A DNA stretch of 64,000 nt from Thermoproteota archaeon (GTDB lineage: Archaea > Korarchaeota > Korarchaeia > Korarchaeales > Korarchaeaceae): assembly GCA_027491435.1 (NCBI GenBank), contig JAOZFG010000004.1:202626-266625 (forward strand). Reading direction: 5' to 3'. The notes beneath the pieces are model-generated. The model ran no database searches. It saw nothing but the letters and a program-made list of their open reading frames with translations, and was not told the DNA's origin. A program made the translations under genes and the position numbers. Each line of letters starts with the position of its first letter. Position 1 is the stretch's first letter. Of the stretch, positions 1,508 to 47,797 are shown piece after piece.

Positions 1508-2068
1508 ATGGACTTACACAGGGCGATAGCACTCACCATATCCCCCATTACAGTGGCAGCCATAACGTCGGCGACCCTACTTAAAGGAGTAGACTTGCTG
1601 GTGGCCATGATACTGCTGGTTTTGCTACCTCCAGCTCCAATAGTACTTAAGTCGGTTAGGGATGAGGAAGGATTCGATCTGCTCGTGCCCGATAGGTTCA
1701 TGAGGGGGAAGTTCTTCCTTTTCGCCCTGATCAGCTATTTCCTGGCCACTGCCTACTTTTACCTCAGAAGGGTGACCCTGGGGACCATGCTATCCCTTTC
1801 CTACCTCTTAGTCACGGCCTCCATGTACCTGTTTAACAAGAGGCTCACTAAGGTGAGCGTTCACGCGGCTGGAATAGTGGGTCCTTCGACCCTGCTCACC
1901 TGCGTCGGCAAGTTAGAAGTAGCGGCGGCCCTATGGGCCTTAACCCCTGTGGTGCTCTGGTCTAGGTGGAAGTCCAAATCGCACAGCATGGGTCAGCTGG
2001 CCTTAGGGGTGACTCTGGCCGTAGCCCTGACCCTGCTCGTCTACTGGACTTTCCTCCCAGTATTTTAG
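1508..2068 (+). CDS. Polytopic membrane protein, possibly PAP2-like
   Basis: 186 aa, several hydrophobic segments, 'KVSVHAAGIVGPSTLL' near a PAP2-like histidine region; overlaps the convergent gene by 66 nt. Confidence 0.5.
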   Translation: MDLHRAIALTISPITVAAITSATLLKGVDLLVAMILLVLLPPAPIVLKSVRDEEGFDLLVPDRFMRGKFFLFALISYFLATAYFYLRRVTLGTMLSLSYLLVTASMYLFNKRLTKVSVHAAGIVGPSTLLTCVGKLEVAAALWALTPVVLWSRWKSKSHSMGQLALGVTLAVALTLLVYWTFLPVF

Positions 2069-2824
2069 AAACAGGTCCTTAGACACTCTGTAGTAGATGT
2101 ACTCGCTCACATGGGGCTCTAAGGTGACGGTGCCCTTGTATCCAACGTCCCTTATCCTTCCTATTACCTCATGCCACGGTATCTTGCCGGCGCCAACGGG
2201 TAAGTGGAGGTCCCTCCTCATGTCATTATCATGGACGTGTATGTGGAGGATCCTGTTTGCGAGGCGCAAGTAGGACTTGAACTTGTCTAACCCCCCGTTA
2301 ATGAACGAATGGGCGACGTCAAATGTCATCCCTAAGTCAGGGATGTTATCCAGCAAGTACCTTATGTCAGATGGTGAGGAGAAGGCGCCGTGATCGACGT
2401 TCTCCACTAAGGGTAGTGAGCTATAGTTCTTGCTCAAGACCACTATCTCTCTAAAACCCTTCAAGTTGTACTCGCGAGCCTTATCCCTAACCGCGGCCAG
2501 CCAACCTGGAGTAAACGGGTGAAATGTTACGTAGGGGGACTCTATCCTGTCAGCAACTCTGAGGATCTCCTCTGCCACCTTCAAGGCCCCCCTCCTCACG
2601 TGCTCGTAGGGATGGCCTATCTCCAGGTACCAGGGCGCGTGTACTAGGAAGAAGGCGCCGGTGGAAGAGACGTCAGACAACCACCTCATCATTGATTCGT
2701 CTACTGTTCCCTTGGGCCATTCAACTGTTATCTCAACGTATTCAAATCCCAAGGACAATATAGATTCCACCTCGTCCTTAAGAGGGAGGTGCGGGTTGTT
2801 CATCACGCCGAACATTAAGTCCAT
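2003..2824 (-). CDS. Sugar phosphate isomerase/epimerase (xylose isomerase-like TIM barrel)
   Basis: FEYVEITVEWP, VTFHPFTPGW, VENVDHGAF, LGMTFDVAHSFINGG, LHIHVHDNDMRRDLHLPVGAGKIPW motifs. Confidence 0.8.
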   Translation of the reverse strand: MDLMFGVMNNPHLPLKDEVESILSLGFEYVEITVEWPKGTVDESMMRWLSDVSSTGAFFLVHAPWYLEIGHPYEHVRRGALKVAEEILRVADRIESPYVTFHPFTPGWLAAVRDKAREYNLKGFREIVVLSKNYSSLPLVENVDHGAFSSPSDIRYLLDNIPDLGMTFDVAHSFINGGLDKFKSYLRLANRILHIHVHDNDMRRDLHLPVGAGKIPWHEVIGRIRDVGYKGTVTLEPHVSEYIYYRVSKDLFLKYWEESPVDEQGQGYGQSHP

Positions 2825-2979: not shown

Positions 2980-4188
2980 ATGAACTTATACGAAGCTGTG
3001 CTGGCTAGCGTGTTAGAGTGGTTCCCAGTACAGCCTACAGGCTCCGGACACTTAGCTGGTTTAGCTGGTTTACTCTTACTGAAGGAAAGGAGGATCTCAA
3101 AGGGAAGCGCGATCACTGGGCTGATTACATCAGCGGTTCTAGCTGTGATGGTAGGTTGGTGGGCCAATTACGAGGACGAAGTTATAGGAGGCCTTCTAGG
3201 GGTGGGACTGTCTGTTATAGGCCTATTCGCCCTATTCTTCCTAAAGTTAAACCTTCTCGCTGTTGAAGAGGGCAGATCCCCTGACGTGATGGACGCCTTC
3301 GTCTCCGGCTTTGCCCAAGGGATTAGCACGATAGGTTTCGGTGGAACGGGCCTCTCCATAGCCCTGCTGACCTCTTCAGGGGTGAACTTCAAAGACGCCG
3401 TGCTGCTCTCCTCAATAACATCGATTCCAGTGGCTCTAGTAACCATTAGACTCACTCCCGCGTCGCTAGCCCAATTAGCTTTAGGAGCCCTGATATCGCT
3501 GTCTCTTCACAAAATCGACGTCAAAGCAACTAAAGTAGGCCTGATGTACGACCTAATGATTTTAATGAACCTGAACCAGGTGTGGAAAGTTCAGGAGAGG
3601 ATGGAGTTCTATCAGCAGGTAGAAGAGGAGATAGTCGGCTGGGTTAAGAAGTACGGGGGCGCAGGAGTCTTCATGGCTATGGTAGCACAATCAGTAATTT
3701 CCCCTATACCTGCTGACGCCGTCTTAGTGGCCGCTGGAGCTCTTGGACTTTCTCCTATAGAAGTTGGGATATACGGTGGGCTGGGAATAGTGATTGGTTC
3801 GATGGTGAATTACGGCATAGGTAGGATGTTCGGGAAGAGGTTACTGGACTCTTACTTCAAGGAGGAGTTCTTAGAGGAAGTCCACAAGTGGTTTGACAAG
3901 TGGGGGGGCTGGATAGTCTTCTTTTCGAGGCTAATACCTTTTCTTCCAATAGATATAATCTCTTACGTGGCGGGCGCAACCTACATGAACCCGCTTGTGT
4001 TCTTCATGTCCAACTTGCTGGCCGTGGTGCCTAGAGCCATGTTCTTCGGGTACGTCGGCGAGATGCTTATGAAGGGCAGGTGGGAAATGCTAATAGCGGC
4101 CCTGGCCTTAATAGTTGGAGGGGCCCTAATAGGCTACAAGGTGCAGAGAAGGAGAAGGTCTAAGGGGCCCGTAGCTCAGCAAGGATAG
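2980..4188 (+). CDS. Fusion protein: degenerate UppP/BacA-like N-terminus plus DedA/VTT-domain C-terminus
   Basis: N-terminal EWFPVQPTGSGHLAGL resembles the UppP 'EWLPVSSSGHL' motif; GFAQGISTIGFGGTGLS sits where UppP has PGxSRSG. C-terminal SPIPADAVLVAAGALG...FFSRLIPFLPIDIISYVAGATYMNPLVFFMSN is DedA-like. 3' end lies inside the tRNA gene. Confidence 0.75.
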   Translation: MNLYEAVLASVLEWFPVQPTGSGHLAGLAGLLLLKERRISKGSAITGLITSAVLAVMVGWWANYEDEVIGGLLGVGLSVIGLFALFFLKLNLLAVEEGRSPDVMDAFVSGFAQGISTIGFGGTGLSIALLTSSGVNFKDAVLLSSITSIPVALVTIRLTPASLAQLALGALISLSLHKIDVKATKVGLMYDLMILMNLNQVWKVQERMEFYQQVEEEIVGWVKKYGGAGVFMAMVAQSVISPIPADAVLVAAGALGLSPIEVGIYGGLGIVIGSMVNYGIGRMFGKRLLDSYFKEEFLEEVHKWFDKWGGWIVFFSRLIPFLPIDIISYVAGATYMNPLVFFMSNLLAVVPRAMFFGYVGEMLMKGRWEMLIAALALIVGGALIGYKVQRRRRSKGPVAQQG

Positions 4189-4239
4189 AGCGGCGGCCTT
4201 CGGAGCCGCAGGTCGGGGGTTCAAGTCCCCCCGGGCCCG
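4165..4239 (+). tRNA. tRNA-Arg (anticodon UCG)
   Basis: Cloverleaf: GGGCCCG/CGGGCCC acceptor, GCTC/GAGC D-arm, GCGGC-cTTCGga-GCCGC anticodon arm (anticodon TCG 4200-4202), GGGGG-TTCAAGT-CCCCC T-arm, discriminator G, no encoded CCA, followed by a short T run. Confidence 0.95.
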
Positions 4240-42845: not shown

Positions 42846-44736
42846 GGGGCTAGGTCTTAAGGTGGGGTTGGAGATCCACCAAAGGCTCAAGACTCACAAG
42901 CTGTTCTGTGGGTGCCCCTCTCACCTGAGGGAAGACGAACCCCATCAGTGGGTTAAGAGGAAGCTCGGCGTCTCGTACAGCGAGCTAGGGGCCATAGATC
43001 CAGCTGCGAGGTTTGAGTCAATCAGGGCCAGAGATTTCTTCTATGGGGTGTACCACGACACCACGTGCGAGGTTGAGATAGACGAAGCCCCTCCCGTTCC
43101 CCTCAATAGGGAAGCCCTAGAAATCTCACTTCAGATAGCTGAGATGTTCAACATGGAAGTGGTGGACGAGGTACACGTGATGAGGAAGATAGTGGTGGAC
43201 GGAAGCAATACGACCGGGTTCCAGAGGACGGCTCTAGTAGCTTTAGGTGGAGATTTCAGCGCAATATCAACTAAGTGGGGTGACGTCAGGATAGCAACCT
43301 TGTGTCTAGAGGAAGAATCCGCCTACATAGTTGAGAGCAAGCCCTCTTACGCCAAGTACAGGCTGGACCGATTGGGTATACCCCTTGTTGAGATAGCCAC
43401 CTACCCGGACATATGGCACCCCGATCAGGCCAAGGAAGCGGCCCTTAAGATAGGCAGGATGTTGAGGGCCACCGACAGGGTGCTTAGGGGGATAGGAACC
43501 ATAAGGCAGGACATAAACGTCAGCATAGAGGAGGGGGCTAGGCAGGAGATAAAAGGGGTGCAGGAGCTAGATCTCATCCCCAAGATAATTGAAAGGGAAG
43601 TCCAGAGGCAGCTGAACCTGCTCAAGATCAGGGATGCGATGAGGGGTAGGGGGTTAGGCGAGGGAGACTTCAACCAGTCCGTGAGGGACGTCACTCACCT
43701 GCTTGTGGAATCTAAGTCGAAGCTGGTTAGGAAAGCCCTATCCTCCGGTAAAAAAGCCCTGGCAGTCAGGCTTCCTGGGATGAAGGGGCTCTTAGGCGTG
43801 GAACTCCAGCCTAACAGGAGGTTTGGCACCGAGCTTTCAGATTACGCCAAGGTTTTCGGCGGCGTTAAGGGCATACTTCACGGGGACGAACTGCCTGGCT
43901 ACGGGATAAGTGAAGAGAAGGTCTCAGCAGTTAGGGAGGAGCTAGACTGCCAGGGAGATGACAACTTCGTTATAGTGCTAGCCGATCCCGACAGCGGGAA
44001 GTTGGCTCTACAGGCCGTTTTGGATAGGGTAAAGCAGGCCCTTAAAGGAGTTCCAAACGAGACCAGGAGAGCACTACCTGACGGTAATACATCCTTCCTG
44101 AGGCCGATGCCAGGATCAGCCAGGATGTACCCGGAAACGGACATACTGCCTGTGATAACCAGGCCTTACTTAGAGGTGGTCAGGTCTGTCAGGGTGAAGA
44201 CCCCCGAGCAAGTCATCGGGGAACTCGTGGAGGGCTACGGGCTCACTGAAGAACTGGCCTGGGAACTCTTTGATTCAGAGAAGGACAGGCTGTTCATCAG
44301 GGCTTACTTAGAAAACAAGGGCCTTCCCTCCAGGTTCTTCGCCTCCGTTCTAACGGGCCTAATGAAGTCCTTGAAGAGGGAGGGCTTTGACGTTGACAGG
44401 ATCAGCGATAAGCACCTGCTGGATATAGCCACCCTGCTGGCCAAAGGTGAGCTGGCTAAGGAGGCGGTAGAGGAGGTGCTCAAGGGGATTGCTCAGGGTA
44501 AATACAAGGACGTCCTACAGTACCTGAGAGAGGCCAGGATATCAGACCAGGAGCTTGAGAGGGTCGTGGACGAGGCTATTAACAGGTTGGAGGCGAAGAT
44601 AAAGGAGAAGGGCGAGAGGGCTTTCAGCGCAGTGATGGGCGAGGTCATGAAAGTGGTTAGGGGTAAGGTGGACGGGGCCAAGGTGAGCAAGCTGGTCAGG
44701 AGGAAGATAAAGGAGAAGTTAGAAGAAGTCAGTTAG
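42826..44736 (+). CDS. gatE: Glutamyl-tRNA(Gln) amidotransferase subunit E
   Basis: LKVGLEIHQRLKTHKLFCGCPS; IDEAPPVPLN; GSNTTGFQRTALVA; IGTIRQDINVSIEEG. Confidence 0.95.
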   Translation: MSAMDYRGLGLKVGLEIHQRLKTHKLFCGCPSHLREDEPHQWVKRKLGVSYSELGAIDPAARFESIRARDFFYGVYHDTTCEVEIDEAPPVPLNREALEISLQIAEMFNMEVVDEVHVMRKIVVDGSNTTGFQRTALVALGGDFSAISTKWGDVRIATLCLEEESAYIVESKPSYAKYRLDRLGIPLVEIATYPDIWHPDQAKEAALKIGRMLRATDRVLRGIGTIRQDINVSIEEGARQEIKGVQELDLIPKIIEREVQRQLNLLKIRDAMRGRGLGEGDFNQSVRDVTHLLVESKSKLVRKALSSGKKALAVRLPGMKGLLGVELQPNRRFGTELSDYAKVFGGVKGILHGDELPGYGISEEKVSAVREELDCQGDDNFVIVLADPDSGKLALQAVLDRVKQALKGVPNETRRALPDGNTSFLRPMPGSARMYPETDILPVITRPYLEVVRSVRVKTPEQVIGELVEGYGLTEELAWELFDSEKDRLFIRAYLENKGLPSRFFASVLTGLMKSLKREGFDVDRISDKHLLDIATLLAKGELAKEAVEEVLKGIAQGKYKDVLQYLREARISDQELERVVDEAINRLEAKIKEKGERAFSAVMGEVMKVVRGKVDGAKVSKLVRRKIKEKLEEVS

Positions 44737-47664
44737 GGAGGTGCTCTTCCTCTTACTCACTATCTCGTCGAAGTCCACGTCGAGGGCGTCCAAGATCTGC
44801 TCGAAGGTGCTCCTCATAATCTCCACATATTTGTCTACGTCTATGTCGCTCTTCTTAGCCATCTCCACAGGATACACCCCCTCTCCTCCCCTAACCTTCA
44901 CGTAACTTATTACCTGACCGGGGACCACCACCACACCACGGGCCCTCAACATCCTAGCCACCTTAACGTGTTGGGGCGTGGTCTTTACGTAGCTGTCCAA
45001 ATCCTTGGTTAACATTGTCCTGAAGGCTAAATCCTCGACTTTAAAGTCACCCGATTTGAGCCTCTCCACGTAATCCCTTATTATCTGGGATATCTTCTCC
45101 TTGGCCCTCTCGAAGTCTTCGGGGGTCTCAACCTCTTTTAGGACGTTCAAGACCTCCTGAAAAGCCTGCTTTACGAAGTCAGGTATGTTCCTCTTCTTTC
45201 CAAGAAGCCCCTTGACCACAACGGCCCCATCTTTAGTGACTCCCAGGTAGTTCTTCTTGAGGCTGGAGAAGACCACGTACCTGAACCAGTTGTCCAACTC
45301 CAAGTCAATGCCCAGTAGGCTTTCCACCCTCTCCTCAAGCCTCCTTATCTGCTCTTCAGTGGCGTCCTTTATGAACAGAGAGTCCGTATTGTGAAGCAGA
45401 ATCCCGTTTCCGAAGAACGTGTGGGTGCCTTCCACCTCCAGATCGTAGACGTACTCAGGCGTGTCAACCCTTGAGACTTGAAGGGGCCTCACCTTCTGGA
45501 CTTTGTAAGCTAAGAGGCCGCTATCTTCTACGGGGACAAGCCTCACCAGGTAGCCTCTAAGAGCTTTGGGTTTTGCTGGCCTTAGGGAGCCGTCTAGCAC
45601 CATTAAAGAGTGGTCCTCGGTTACGTCCACGTGCCCTCCAGGAAACTCCACCCTGTACATCTCCTTGTCGGTCCTGTGCCTCATCACGTATCTCACCCTC
45701 TTAAAGGCCGGCTCGCCGGAATCAAGCGATAGAACGTAGAGGTCTTCTGGGAAGTAGTACTCCTTGCCGCCCGAGACTAGATGGACCTCCTTGAAGAGGT
45801 CCTCTATCCTAACCTGACCGTCCCTTGTGATGACCAAGGTGTCAGGGGATACGCTGTCCCCATATATGACCTTTAACCCCATCTCCTCAGCCATCTTAAC
45901 TGAAAGGGTTATTGCCTTCCTTCCTAAAGCCGTTATCATCTCAGCCACTGGGGGCGAGTAAAGCGGGAAGTTTTCGTAACCGAAGACGCCGTAAGAGGCG
46001 TTCAGAAACACCTTAAGGCTACTCTGGACGGTGTCATACCACTCCTTAAGCTCCCCTTGGCTTGTCTTAGCGAGCCTCTTGTACCTCTTAACCCTCACGT
46101 CCCTCAGGGCCCTTATGATCTTCGGTATTATGCCAAGGTCCTTAGTACAGATCCAATGCGGAAGCTCTTCCACTGGCCTGTTTTCCCTACACTCCTTGTG
46201 GGGGCAATTAATGGTCTCGAAGCTCACACCCCACCTCCCTATTATCGAGGGGTACAGGCTAGCGAAGTCCATGACAGCAACCCTGAAGTGCACCCCAGGC
46301 ACGGGGTTCAGCACTATCGCTCCCATGTACTTCTTGCCCTTTATTAGGGCCTTTGAGTAAGTCCTCTCCCCTCTAACCTTCATAATCTCCTCCTTCTCGG
46401 GGATTAGCCAGTTCCTCCTCCTGTACTCGAAGAATATCATGTTCTTTATCCACTGAGACACTCCCTGCCTGGAGACCTCCTCCAGGGACATCTTGCTTAT
46501 CCTGGCGAGCAGGAAGAGGAGTCTGATTATCTCTCCAGAGTTTATGTTTCCGAGCTTATGAGTGAGGACGGCGTCTTGGAGGCAGTACTTGGCCAAGGTC
46601 ACGCTATCCACTTTGGAGAAGTCGTAAGTGCTTATCTCAACTTTCCTCTCCCCCAACAAGGCTTCCGATATCTCGTCCAGCGTGTATCCCAGGTACCTGT
46701 TTTTGAAGACGTACCCCTGAATGGACCTGTTGTTGAAGAACTTGTACAGGTCTACGTGTATTCCCGTATCCAGTAGAGCCCTATCCCTCTCAAGCCTTAT
46801 GGGCTTGGGGCTAACCCCGAGCTCCTTGGCCCTCCTGGCCAGATACGGGAAGTCGAAGTTATCCCCGTTATAAGTGAACACCAATGGGTAGGAGGAGATC
46901 AGATCTAAGGCGTCCCTGAGCATCTTCCCTTCAGACTCATAAACCCTCACCTTCGCCCCGTTAAGTTCTTCAGGGGGCTCCTTACCCCTGCTTAACATGA
47001 AAACTTCCCTTCTGCCATCACTTCCTACAAAAGCTATGGCCAACACGGGCTTAACTGGGTTAGAGGGGTCAGGAACCTTTCCCTCGGTGGTCAGGACCTC
47101 TATGTCCACCGCCAAGTTCCTCAGGTTTGGCGATGGCTGGTCGAAGAGCGGCATCAAGCCCTCAAGTATCCTAACGGTCTCTTGGTCTAGATCCCTGAAC
47201 TCCTCCCCAATTTCCCCCCTCTCATGTATCCTCTTTACCTCATCACCCACTTCATAGTAACAGCCGGGTACGAGCTGTCTGTCGTAGACGTAACAATCGT
47301 AGTACTTTATCTTGGCCTCCCACACCCTGTATCCCTTCTTGGAGAGCTCCTCCCTTATGTTCTTCCCAGAGCCGCCTATTGCTAAGGGGTCCTTGGCCTC
47401 AAGTTTGGTGAGCTCAACCCATCTATCCCTCAACACGTCGTACTTCTTCACCCTGTAGGCCCCCTCAACCCTAGCCTGCAGGTTTCCTGGTAAAAGCTCT
47501 TCAATCTTGTCGTGGGGAGCGTCTGTCAGCAGGTAGGGCCTATGACCAGTATTGTCCTTTATCAGGAAGACCTCGTCCCTCTCAGGATCGTAAAACTTCA
47601 TGACCGCGGACCTATCATCTCCAGAGTAGAACACCGACAGGAGCACACCTTTCCTAACGCCCAT
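44719..47664 (-). CDS. polB: Family B DNA polymerase precursor with intein
   Basis: Exo I NLAVDIEVLTT, Exo II VFTYNGDNFDFPYL, motif A VAVMDFASLYPSII, motif C YGD/TDS split by the intein. Start at the internal Met MGVRKG after a GGAGG sequence. Confidence 0.93.
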   Translation of the reverse strand: MGVRKGVLLSVFYSGDDRSAVMKFYDPERDEVFLIKDNTGHRPYLLTDAPHDKIEELLPGNLQARVEGAYRVKKYDVLRDRWVELTKLEAKDPLAIGGSGKNIREELSKKGYRVWEAKIKYYDCYVYDRQLVPGCYYEVGDEVKRIHERGEIGEEFRDLDQETVRILEGLMPLFDQPSPNLRNLAVDIEVLTTEGKVPDPSNPVKPVLAIAFVGSDGRREVFMLSRGKEPPEELNGAKVRVYESEGKMLRDALDLISSYPLVFTYNGDNFDFPYLARRAKELGVSPKPIRLERDRALLDTGIHVDLYKFFNNRSIQGYVFKNRYLGYTLDEISEALLGERKVEISTYDFSKVDSVTLAKYCLQDAVLTHKLGNINSGEIIRLLFLLARISKMSLEEVSRQGVSQWIKNMIFFEYRRRNWLIPEKEEIMKVRGERTYSKALIKGKKYMGAIVLNPVPGVHFRVAVMDFASLYPSIIGRWGVSFETINCPHKECRENRPVEELPHWICTKDLGIIPKIIRALRDVRVKRYKRLAKTSQGELKEWYDTVQSSLKVFLNASYGVFGYENFPLYSPPVAEMITALGRKAITLSVKMAEEMGLKVIYGDSVSPDTLVITRDGQVRIEDLFKEVHLVSGGKEYYFPEDLYVLSLDSGEPAFKRVRYVMRHRTDKEMYRVEFPGGHVDVTEDHSLMVLDGSLRPAKPKALRGYLVRLVPVEDSGLLAYKVQKVRPLQVSRVDTPEYVYDLEVEGTHTFFGNGILLHNTDSLFIKDATEEQIRRLEERVESLLGIDLELDNWFRYVVFSSLKKNYLGVTKDGAVVVKGLLGKKRNIPDFVKQAFQEVLNVLKEVETPEDFERAKEKISQIIRDYVERLKSGDFKVEDLAFRTMLTKDLDSYVKTTPQHVKVARMLRARGVVVVPGQVISYVKVRGGEGVYPVEMAKKSDIDVDKYVEIMRSTFEQILDALDVDFDEIVSKRKSTSLTDFF
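45388..45855 (-). other. Mini-intein in PolB motif C, 156 aa
   Basis: Begins Ser (SVSPDTLVITRDGQVRIEDLF), internal HVDVTEDHSL block, ends YVYDLEVEGTHTFFGNGILLHN followed by Thr; exteins join as VIYGD|TDSLFI. No LAGLIDADG-like insert visible. Confidence 0.93.
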
Positions 47665-47797
47665 TTCCCTCCTACTAGGAGAGAGCACACTAAAAATGTG
47701 CCGTCTTAAAGTCGACCGGGAGATTACGACCTTATGGATAAGCTAATTCGCCGAGCCCTTGCAATGCTTAAATAAAGGGGCGGGGTCTGGTGAAGGG

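Follow-up and report, generated by a model that had tools for sequence, protein, structure and literature searches.

The window, by which we mean the whole 64,000-nucleotide stretch of archaeal DNA that was analyzed, contains an open reading frame at positions 2980 to 4188 of the forward strand that is uninterrupted from its ATG to its stop codon and encodes a single polypeptide of 402 residues. A sequence-only reading had claimed that this polypeptide joins a degenerate UppP-like domain to a DedA-like domain, and the claim was borne out, with the first half recognized by PF02673, hhalign, profile searches and Foldseek and the second by PF09335. We call the first half a UppP-derived module rather than UppP because catalytic features that define the enzyme were checked and found to be absent. 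The features of the locus are as follows.

1508 to 2068, forward strand: probable PAP2-like membrane phosphatase beside the TIM-barrel gene (orthologues in genomes G019 and G022 overlap PF01569; synteny).
2003 to 2824, reverse strand: divergent neighbor, a xylose-isomerase-like TIM barrel (AP_endonuc_2; Pfam E 1.3e-27; synteny).
2980 to 4188, forward strand: fusion gene, 402 amino acids (open reading frame; orthologues in 13 of the 29 genomes of the phylum; dN/dS 0.03 to 0.33 per half).
2980 to 3597, forward strand: UppP/BacA-derived module, residues 1 to 206, catalytically degenerate and without helix H3 (PF02673, hhalign, hmmsearch, Foldseek).
3016 to 3051, forward strand: remnant of UppP motif 1, E13 to H24, EWFPVQPTGSGH (alignment with E. 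coli and archaeal BacA; column counts).
3328 to 3357, forward strand: remnant of UppP motif 2, TIGFGGTGLS, residues 117 to 126 (alignment; column counts).
3598 to 3657, forward strand: linker and charged helix between the halves, residues 207 to 226 (AlphaFold secondary structure).
3706 to 4062, forward strand: VTT/DedA domain, residues 243 to 361, COG0398/YdjZ-like by sequence (PF09335, YdjZ at 97.5 bits, tree, alignment).
4165 to 4239, forward strand: tRNA-Arg(TCG), which shares sequence with the final codons of the fusion frame and forms the downstream edge of the locus (ARAGORN).

Because the tRNA gene overlaps the end of the frame, the last eight residues of the fusion protein are tRNA sequence; in some relatives (loci L017, L019 and L026) the frame stops upstream of the tRNA. 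The TIM-barrel gene adjoins the fusion in every fusion-bearing locus inspected. The PAP2-like protein has altered motifs (VSVHAAG and SRWKSKSH), and Pfam misses the window copy; weak PF01569 matches overlap its orthologues in G019 (E 5.7e-5) and G022 (E 3.2e-4). It is present in 24 of the 29 genomes of the phylum and was rejected as an obligate partner, as it occurs without the fusion and is located elsewhere in the G016 and G020 genomes. Far from this locus, a family B DNA polymerase frame (44719 to 47688, reverse strand) has an intein-like insertion at YGDTDS, where YGD is followed by SVSPDTLVITRDG and, at the other end of the insertion, FFGNGILLHN is followed by TDSLF.

With residues 1 to 206 as the query, Pfam matched PF02673 over residues 44 to 159 at an E value of 1.4e-4 and 22.1 bits, which falls below the gathering score of 33.4 bits. 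BacA was not matched by Pfam when the N-terminal half was cut at 197 residues but was matched with 206 residues and in orthologues, that of G018 giving E 3e-6. Profile-profile alignment with hhalign found the BacA/UppP relationship that had been anticipated, at 98% probability against archaeal BacA. Moreover, a profile of the N-terminal halves of thirteen orthologues, searched against 314 open reading frames of BacA-bearing loci plus E. coli BacA, ranked the genome's own intact BacA first (E 2.6e-10) and almost every other archaeal BacA protein after it. PDB sequence searches with the whole protein or its profile returned no match. Consistent with the profiles, an AlphaFold model of the N-terminal half (pLDDT 68.5, pTM 0.74) had the BacA structures 5oon (probability 1.00) and 6fmt (0.99) as its top two Foldseek matches, and none of the others among the fifty listed exceeded a probability of 0.5. 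The E values of the Foldseek matches were weak, at about 0.01, and the TM-score reached 0.51 at best; we therefore take the fold match as support and not as proof, and rest the case on the sequence profiles. We conclude that the N-terminal half derives from UppP.

The same architecture, for which the sequence-only reading had recommended a search, was found in other genomes. The full-length fusion occupies one syntenic locus in 13 of the 29 genomes of the window's phylum, probably Korarchaeota (10 of the 16 in its genus, plus three from two further genera of the family), relatives that a single-protein scan of the genome contigs did not find and an alignment-based scan did. In the loci inspected, the fusion lies between the opposite-strand TIM-barrel gene and the tRNA-Arg(TCG) gene; in the fusion-less genomes G009, G011 and G012, that tRNA gene comes immediately after the same TIM-barrel gene. 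Since G009, G011 and other near-complete relatives lack it, the fusion is dispensable in the genus. Its occupation of a single site in three genera, set against its absence from some members of the genus, suggests a gene of long standing in the family that was later lost. An assembly or reading-frame artefact might be suspected, since the genome comprises 43 contigs and those of relatives are largely metagenome assembled, but that explanation is refuted by an architecture common to thirteen genomes at one syntenic locus and by dN/dS ratios well below 1, and we give it practically no weight.

One further UppP-VTT fusion was the only other one among the matches listed from 394 sampled archaeal genomes, 182 of them with BacA, and from 228 genomes of the phylum in which it occurs. 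This protein, of genome G038 in another archaeal phylum, has 491 residues (L049, 793 to 2265, reverse strand), matches both Pfam domains far above their cutoffs and has intact catalytic motifs (EWLPVSSQG and PGLSRSG) in its UppP half. Its VTT half is similar to that of the window protein (E 1e-38) and is YdjZ-like. When a common origin of the G038 and korarchaeal-type fusions was evaluated, the AU test gave p 0.34 for G038 and the others forming one clade and p 0.37 for YdjZ with the others. In the sister genome G060, the UppP frame ends at a contig end and nothing matched the VTT half, so that it counts neither for nor against. Long BacA frames in the archaea G343, G498 and G305 were rejected as fusions, being merely long open frames without a VTT domain.

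In E. coli UppP, Ser27 is the nucleophile and Glu21 the base, and Arg174 and Ser173 complete the active site; S27A abolished activity, and mutation of Arg174 and Ser173 reduced it about 1000-fold and about 50-fold, respectively (PMC5861054; residue roles also from PMC5852022). Residues were mapped by aligning the fusion with E. coli BacA and eight archaeal BacA rows. The proposed match of residues 13 to 24 to the first UppP motif proved partial: agreement extends to Glu21, Pro24 and Gly-His, whereas the two serines of PVSSTGH, one of them the nucleophile Ser27, have given way to Q/W-P-x-x with a two-residue insertion at the Ser26/Ser27 site. The general base is retained as E13 in 13 of 13 orthologues by column counts. 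At the second motif, TIGFGGTGLS stands in place of PGxSRSG exactly as had been read; in the alignment, Pro170 is deleted, Ser173 is replaced by G121 and Arg174 by G122, and no intact PGxSRS occurs anywhere else in the protein. The loss is more complete than claimed and extends beyond Ser-Arg-Ser to Ser27 and to the third UppP helix, H3 (segment LHLGT..A..Y), whose deletion amounts in the alignment to a net of about 33 residues. Consequently, the UppP standard of two repeats, each with a re-entrant pair and three transmembrane helices, does not apply here, and the predicted models place, at moderate confidence, two transmembrane helices in the first repeat. We conclude from the alignment that the phosphatase residues Ser27, Ser173 and Arg174 and one helix have been lost.

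The replacement motif has itself been conserved. All thirteen orthologues have G[FY]GG[ST]G instead of PGxSRSG, with a single F-to-Y change, and column counts show G119, G121, G122 and G124 to be invariant in 13 of 13. Calculated for each half separately between close relatives, dN/dS was 0.08 to 0.33 for the N-terminal half and 0.03 to 0.31 for the C-terminal half. Because the motif is conserved in every orthologue and dN/dS is well below 1, we conclude that both halves are maintained under purifying selection and that neither is decaying.

The second half is DedA/VTT type, as previously read: residues 243 to 361 match PF09335 at E 3e-24 and 86.1 bits, against a gathering score of 33.9. A profile of the thirteen orthologous C-terminal halves gave 97.5 bits for E. 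coli YdjZ, 41 bits for YdjX and, at E 10, no match to YabI or YqjA (COG0586). The second re-entrant tip has the COG0398 motif R[LI]xPFxPxDxxSYxAG and not the R..x..RT of undecaprenyl-phosphate (UndP) flippases. When flippase positions were aligned, Glu39 corresponded to Q237, Asp51 to D246, Arg130 to R317 and Arg136 to P323. Invariant in the half are D246, R317, D325 and R352, as well as Q237, which lies shortly before the start of the Pfam match. The first tip has Q237 as in COG0398, a group without acidic residues there, yet D246 is invariant; D246 and R352 are unusual for COG0398, as YdjZ has Phe and Ala at these positions and the G038 fusion has Glu and Arg. In trees in which the E. coli rows were long branched, the half grouped with YdjZ and the G038 fusion and away from the UptA-like proteins that the fusion-bearing genomes also encode. 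By these sequence comparisons, the DedA half is COG0398/YdjZ-like and not of the UptA (undecaprenyl-phosphate flippase) type.

DedA proteins of the COG0398 type are related to eukaryotic scramblases, and their relatives include TMEM41B and VMP1. COG0398 proteins are considered unlikely UndP flippases, and phospholipid scrambling has been raised as a possibility for them (Todor et al., PMC10127716). The suggestion that the DedA half is of the undecaprenyl-phosphate-recycling kind was not supported, and the chain from DedA to carrier recycling is weakened both by the subfamily assignment and by that view of it.

The genome also encodes a separate intact BacA (L001, 1483 to 2220, forward strand) and a separate UptA-like DedA/VTT protein (G000:C5:177592) with the E, E, R, R set, and the fusion is therefore an additional protein. 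None of the 29 genomes of the phylum encodes the alternative flippase DUF368/PopT. Judging from these sequences, ordinary carrier dephosphorylation and flipping have candidate genes of their own outside the fusion. The separate BacA reads QGILEWLPVSSEGQ, with Gln at the positions of E. coli Glu17 and His30, a substitution also seen in several other archaeal BacA proteins with otherwise intact motifs.

The most likely interpretation is that the fusion is a lipid translocase with a noncatalytic UppP-derived module, its substrate and activity being putative. More specifically, we tentatively propose, with a nearly even chance of being right, a COG0398 (YdjZ/TVP38)-type DedA translocase whose UppP module has lost its phosphatase residues and serves to bind or gate an isoprenoid lipid that carries phosphate. 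The re-entrant tip GFGG[ST]G, conserved and rich in glycine, would still hold the phosphate headgroup of the lipid by means of backbone amides at the N terminus of a helix, the N-terminal half would present or gate the lipid for the VTT half, and the VTT half would move it across the membrane without chemistry. The intact BacA and UptA-like DedA encoded elsewhere would perform dephosphorylation and standard carrier recycling. The N termini of UppP helices 2 and 7 have been proposed to hold substrate phosphates with backbone amides (PMC5861054), and the tip could for that reason keep a phosphate-holding role without catalysis. Re-entrant loops, a typical feature of transporters, occur in both the UppP and the DedA fold (PMC5852022, PMC7818093). 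A coupling of lipid-phosphate binding to transport, with dolichol phosphate as the putative substrate, had likewise been envisaged in the sequence-only reading. Historically, an ancestral UppP-DedA fusion may have coupled dephosphorylation to carrier translocation, with G038 as the surviving intact version, and the enzyme half here may have become a noncatalytic lipid-phosphate site feeding a COG0398 scramblase; we regard this scenario as rather doubtful.

Counting for the translocase reading are the UppP homology of the N-terminal half, the catalytic loss mapped against E. coli BacA, the conservation rather than decay of the replacement motif, the YdjZ-like VTT half, the separate intact BacA and UptA-like protein of the genome, the re-entrant loops of both folds and the intact-motif fusion of G038. 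Counting against it, the phosphate site may not survive, given that the Ser and Arg residues and helix H3 are gone and that most of residues 1 to 21 have pLDDT below 50 in the model; moreover, an anionic polyprenyl phosphate may not be the lipid of the VTT half, as the Arg136 and Glu39 equivalents are missing. The dispensability of the gene in the genus is a further point against this reading. The chief alternative, unlikely though still a serious contender, shares the same anatomy and parts from it over ligand binding by the GFGG loop: the VTT half would be an ordinary archaeal phospholipid scramblase and the N-terminal half a structural or dimerization scaffold that binds no lipid phosphate. 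Loss of helix H3 and of all catalytic residues but one is consistent with a scaffold, as are the intact UppP and UptA-like proteins elsewhere in the genome and a VTT half from a subfamily suggested to include possible phospholipid scramblases (Todor et al., PMC10127716). The former active-site loop with its four invariant glycines is, however, among the best-conserved parts of the N-terminal half, for which a pure scaffold has no obvious need.

Freed of catalysis, the N-terminal half could instead have evolved from its transporter-like inverted-repeat fold into an independent transporter of small molecules or ions. Outside UppP, transporters and channels are the only proteins for which its interdigitated inverted repeat has been reported (PMC5852022; see also PMC5861054), and the re-entrant tip is rich in glycine, but the tips have no charged residue except E13 and the first repeat is short of one helix, making this origin improbable. 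Still less credible is a surviving phosphatase that uses E13, S22 and H24. E13 is invariant, and S22 and H24 occur in 12 and 10 of the 13 orthologues, respectively; H24 is nevertheless Arg in G016, G018 and G020, S22 is Gly in G018, and Arg174, Ser173 and Ser27, critical in E. coli (PMC5861054), are all absent. Because of the residues lost, retained phosphatase activity is very unlikely.

To our knowledge, no substrate has been established for prokaryotic members of COG0398, the DedA type to which TMEM41B and VMP1 are related, and we know of no defined archaeal machinery that returns the dolichyl or polyprenyl phosphate carrier. A natural fusion of a UppP-derived module to a COG0398 DedA protein suggests lipid-carrier handling without chemistry and makes an isoprenoid lipid bearing phosphate a candidate substrate. 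If the pseudo-enzyme translocase reading is true, a COG0398 protein would have polyprenyl phosphate or a related lipid phosphate as its substrate. The intact-motif fusion of G038 and the inactivated fusion form a direct comparison pair for phosphatase-dependent and phosphatase-free translocation.

The N-terminal half resembles UppP/BacA (PF02673; E. coli BacA, PDB 5oon/6cb2) in sequence profile, in fold match and in the order of its elements, an E..P..GH loop followed by a G..QG..G loop, but differs in lacking Ser27, Ser173, Arg174, Pro170 and helix H3, in its shortened first re-entrant pair and in being joined to a VTT domain. The C-terminal half resembles COG0398 DedA proteins (E. coli YdjZ/YdjX, TVP38/TMEM64 type; TMEM41B/VMP1 relatives) in its YdjZ profile match and R[LI]xPFxPxDxxSYxAG motif and is unlike them in D246 and R352 (Phe and Ala in YdjZ) and in the attached module. 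With the COG0586 UndP flippases (UptA, YqjA, YabI), it shares the VTT fold and the presence at the tips of an acidic residue (D246) and an arginine (R317), but Q237 and P323 replace Glu39 and Arg136, and the YabI and YqjA profile matches are absent. The G038 fusion has the same domain order and a similar VTT half, whereas its UppP half retains both catalytic motifs. No report of a UppP-DedA fusion was found in the full article text of open-licence papers. Phosphatase-flippase fusions are already known as PAP2-DedA, PAP2-DUF368 and DUF368-BacA (PMC9876793, PMC10127716), and these likewise join a lipid-pyrophosphate phosphatase domain to a flippase-type domain; in contrast, the protein described here has UppP and not PAP2, a COG0398 and not a COG0586 VTT domain, and a phosphatase half that is inactivated. 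We conclude that although the principle of fusing phosphatase and flippase is known, the combination of an inactivated UppP module and a COG0398 VTT domain in one protein is rare and, as far as the open-licence papers searched show, not previously described.
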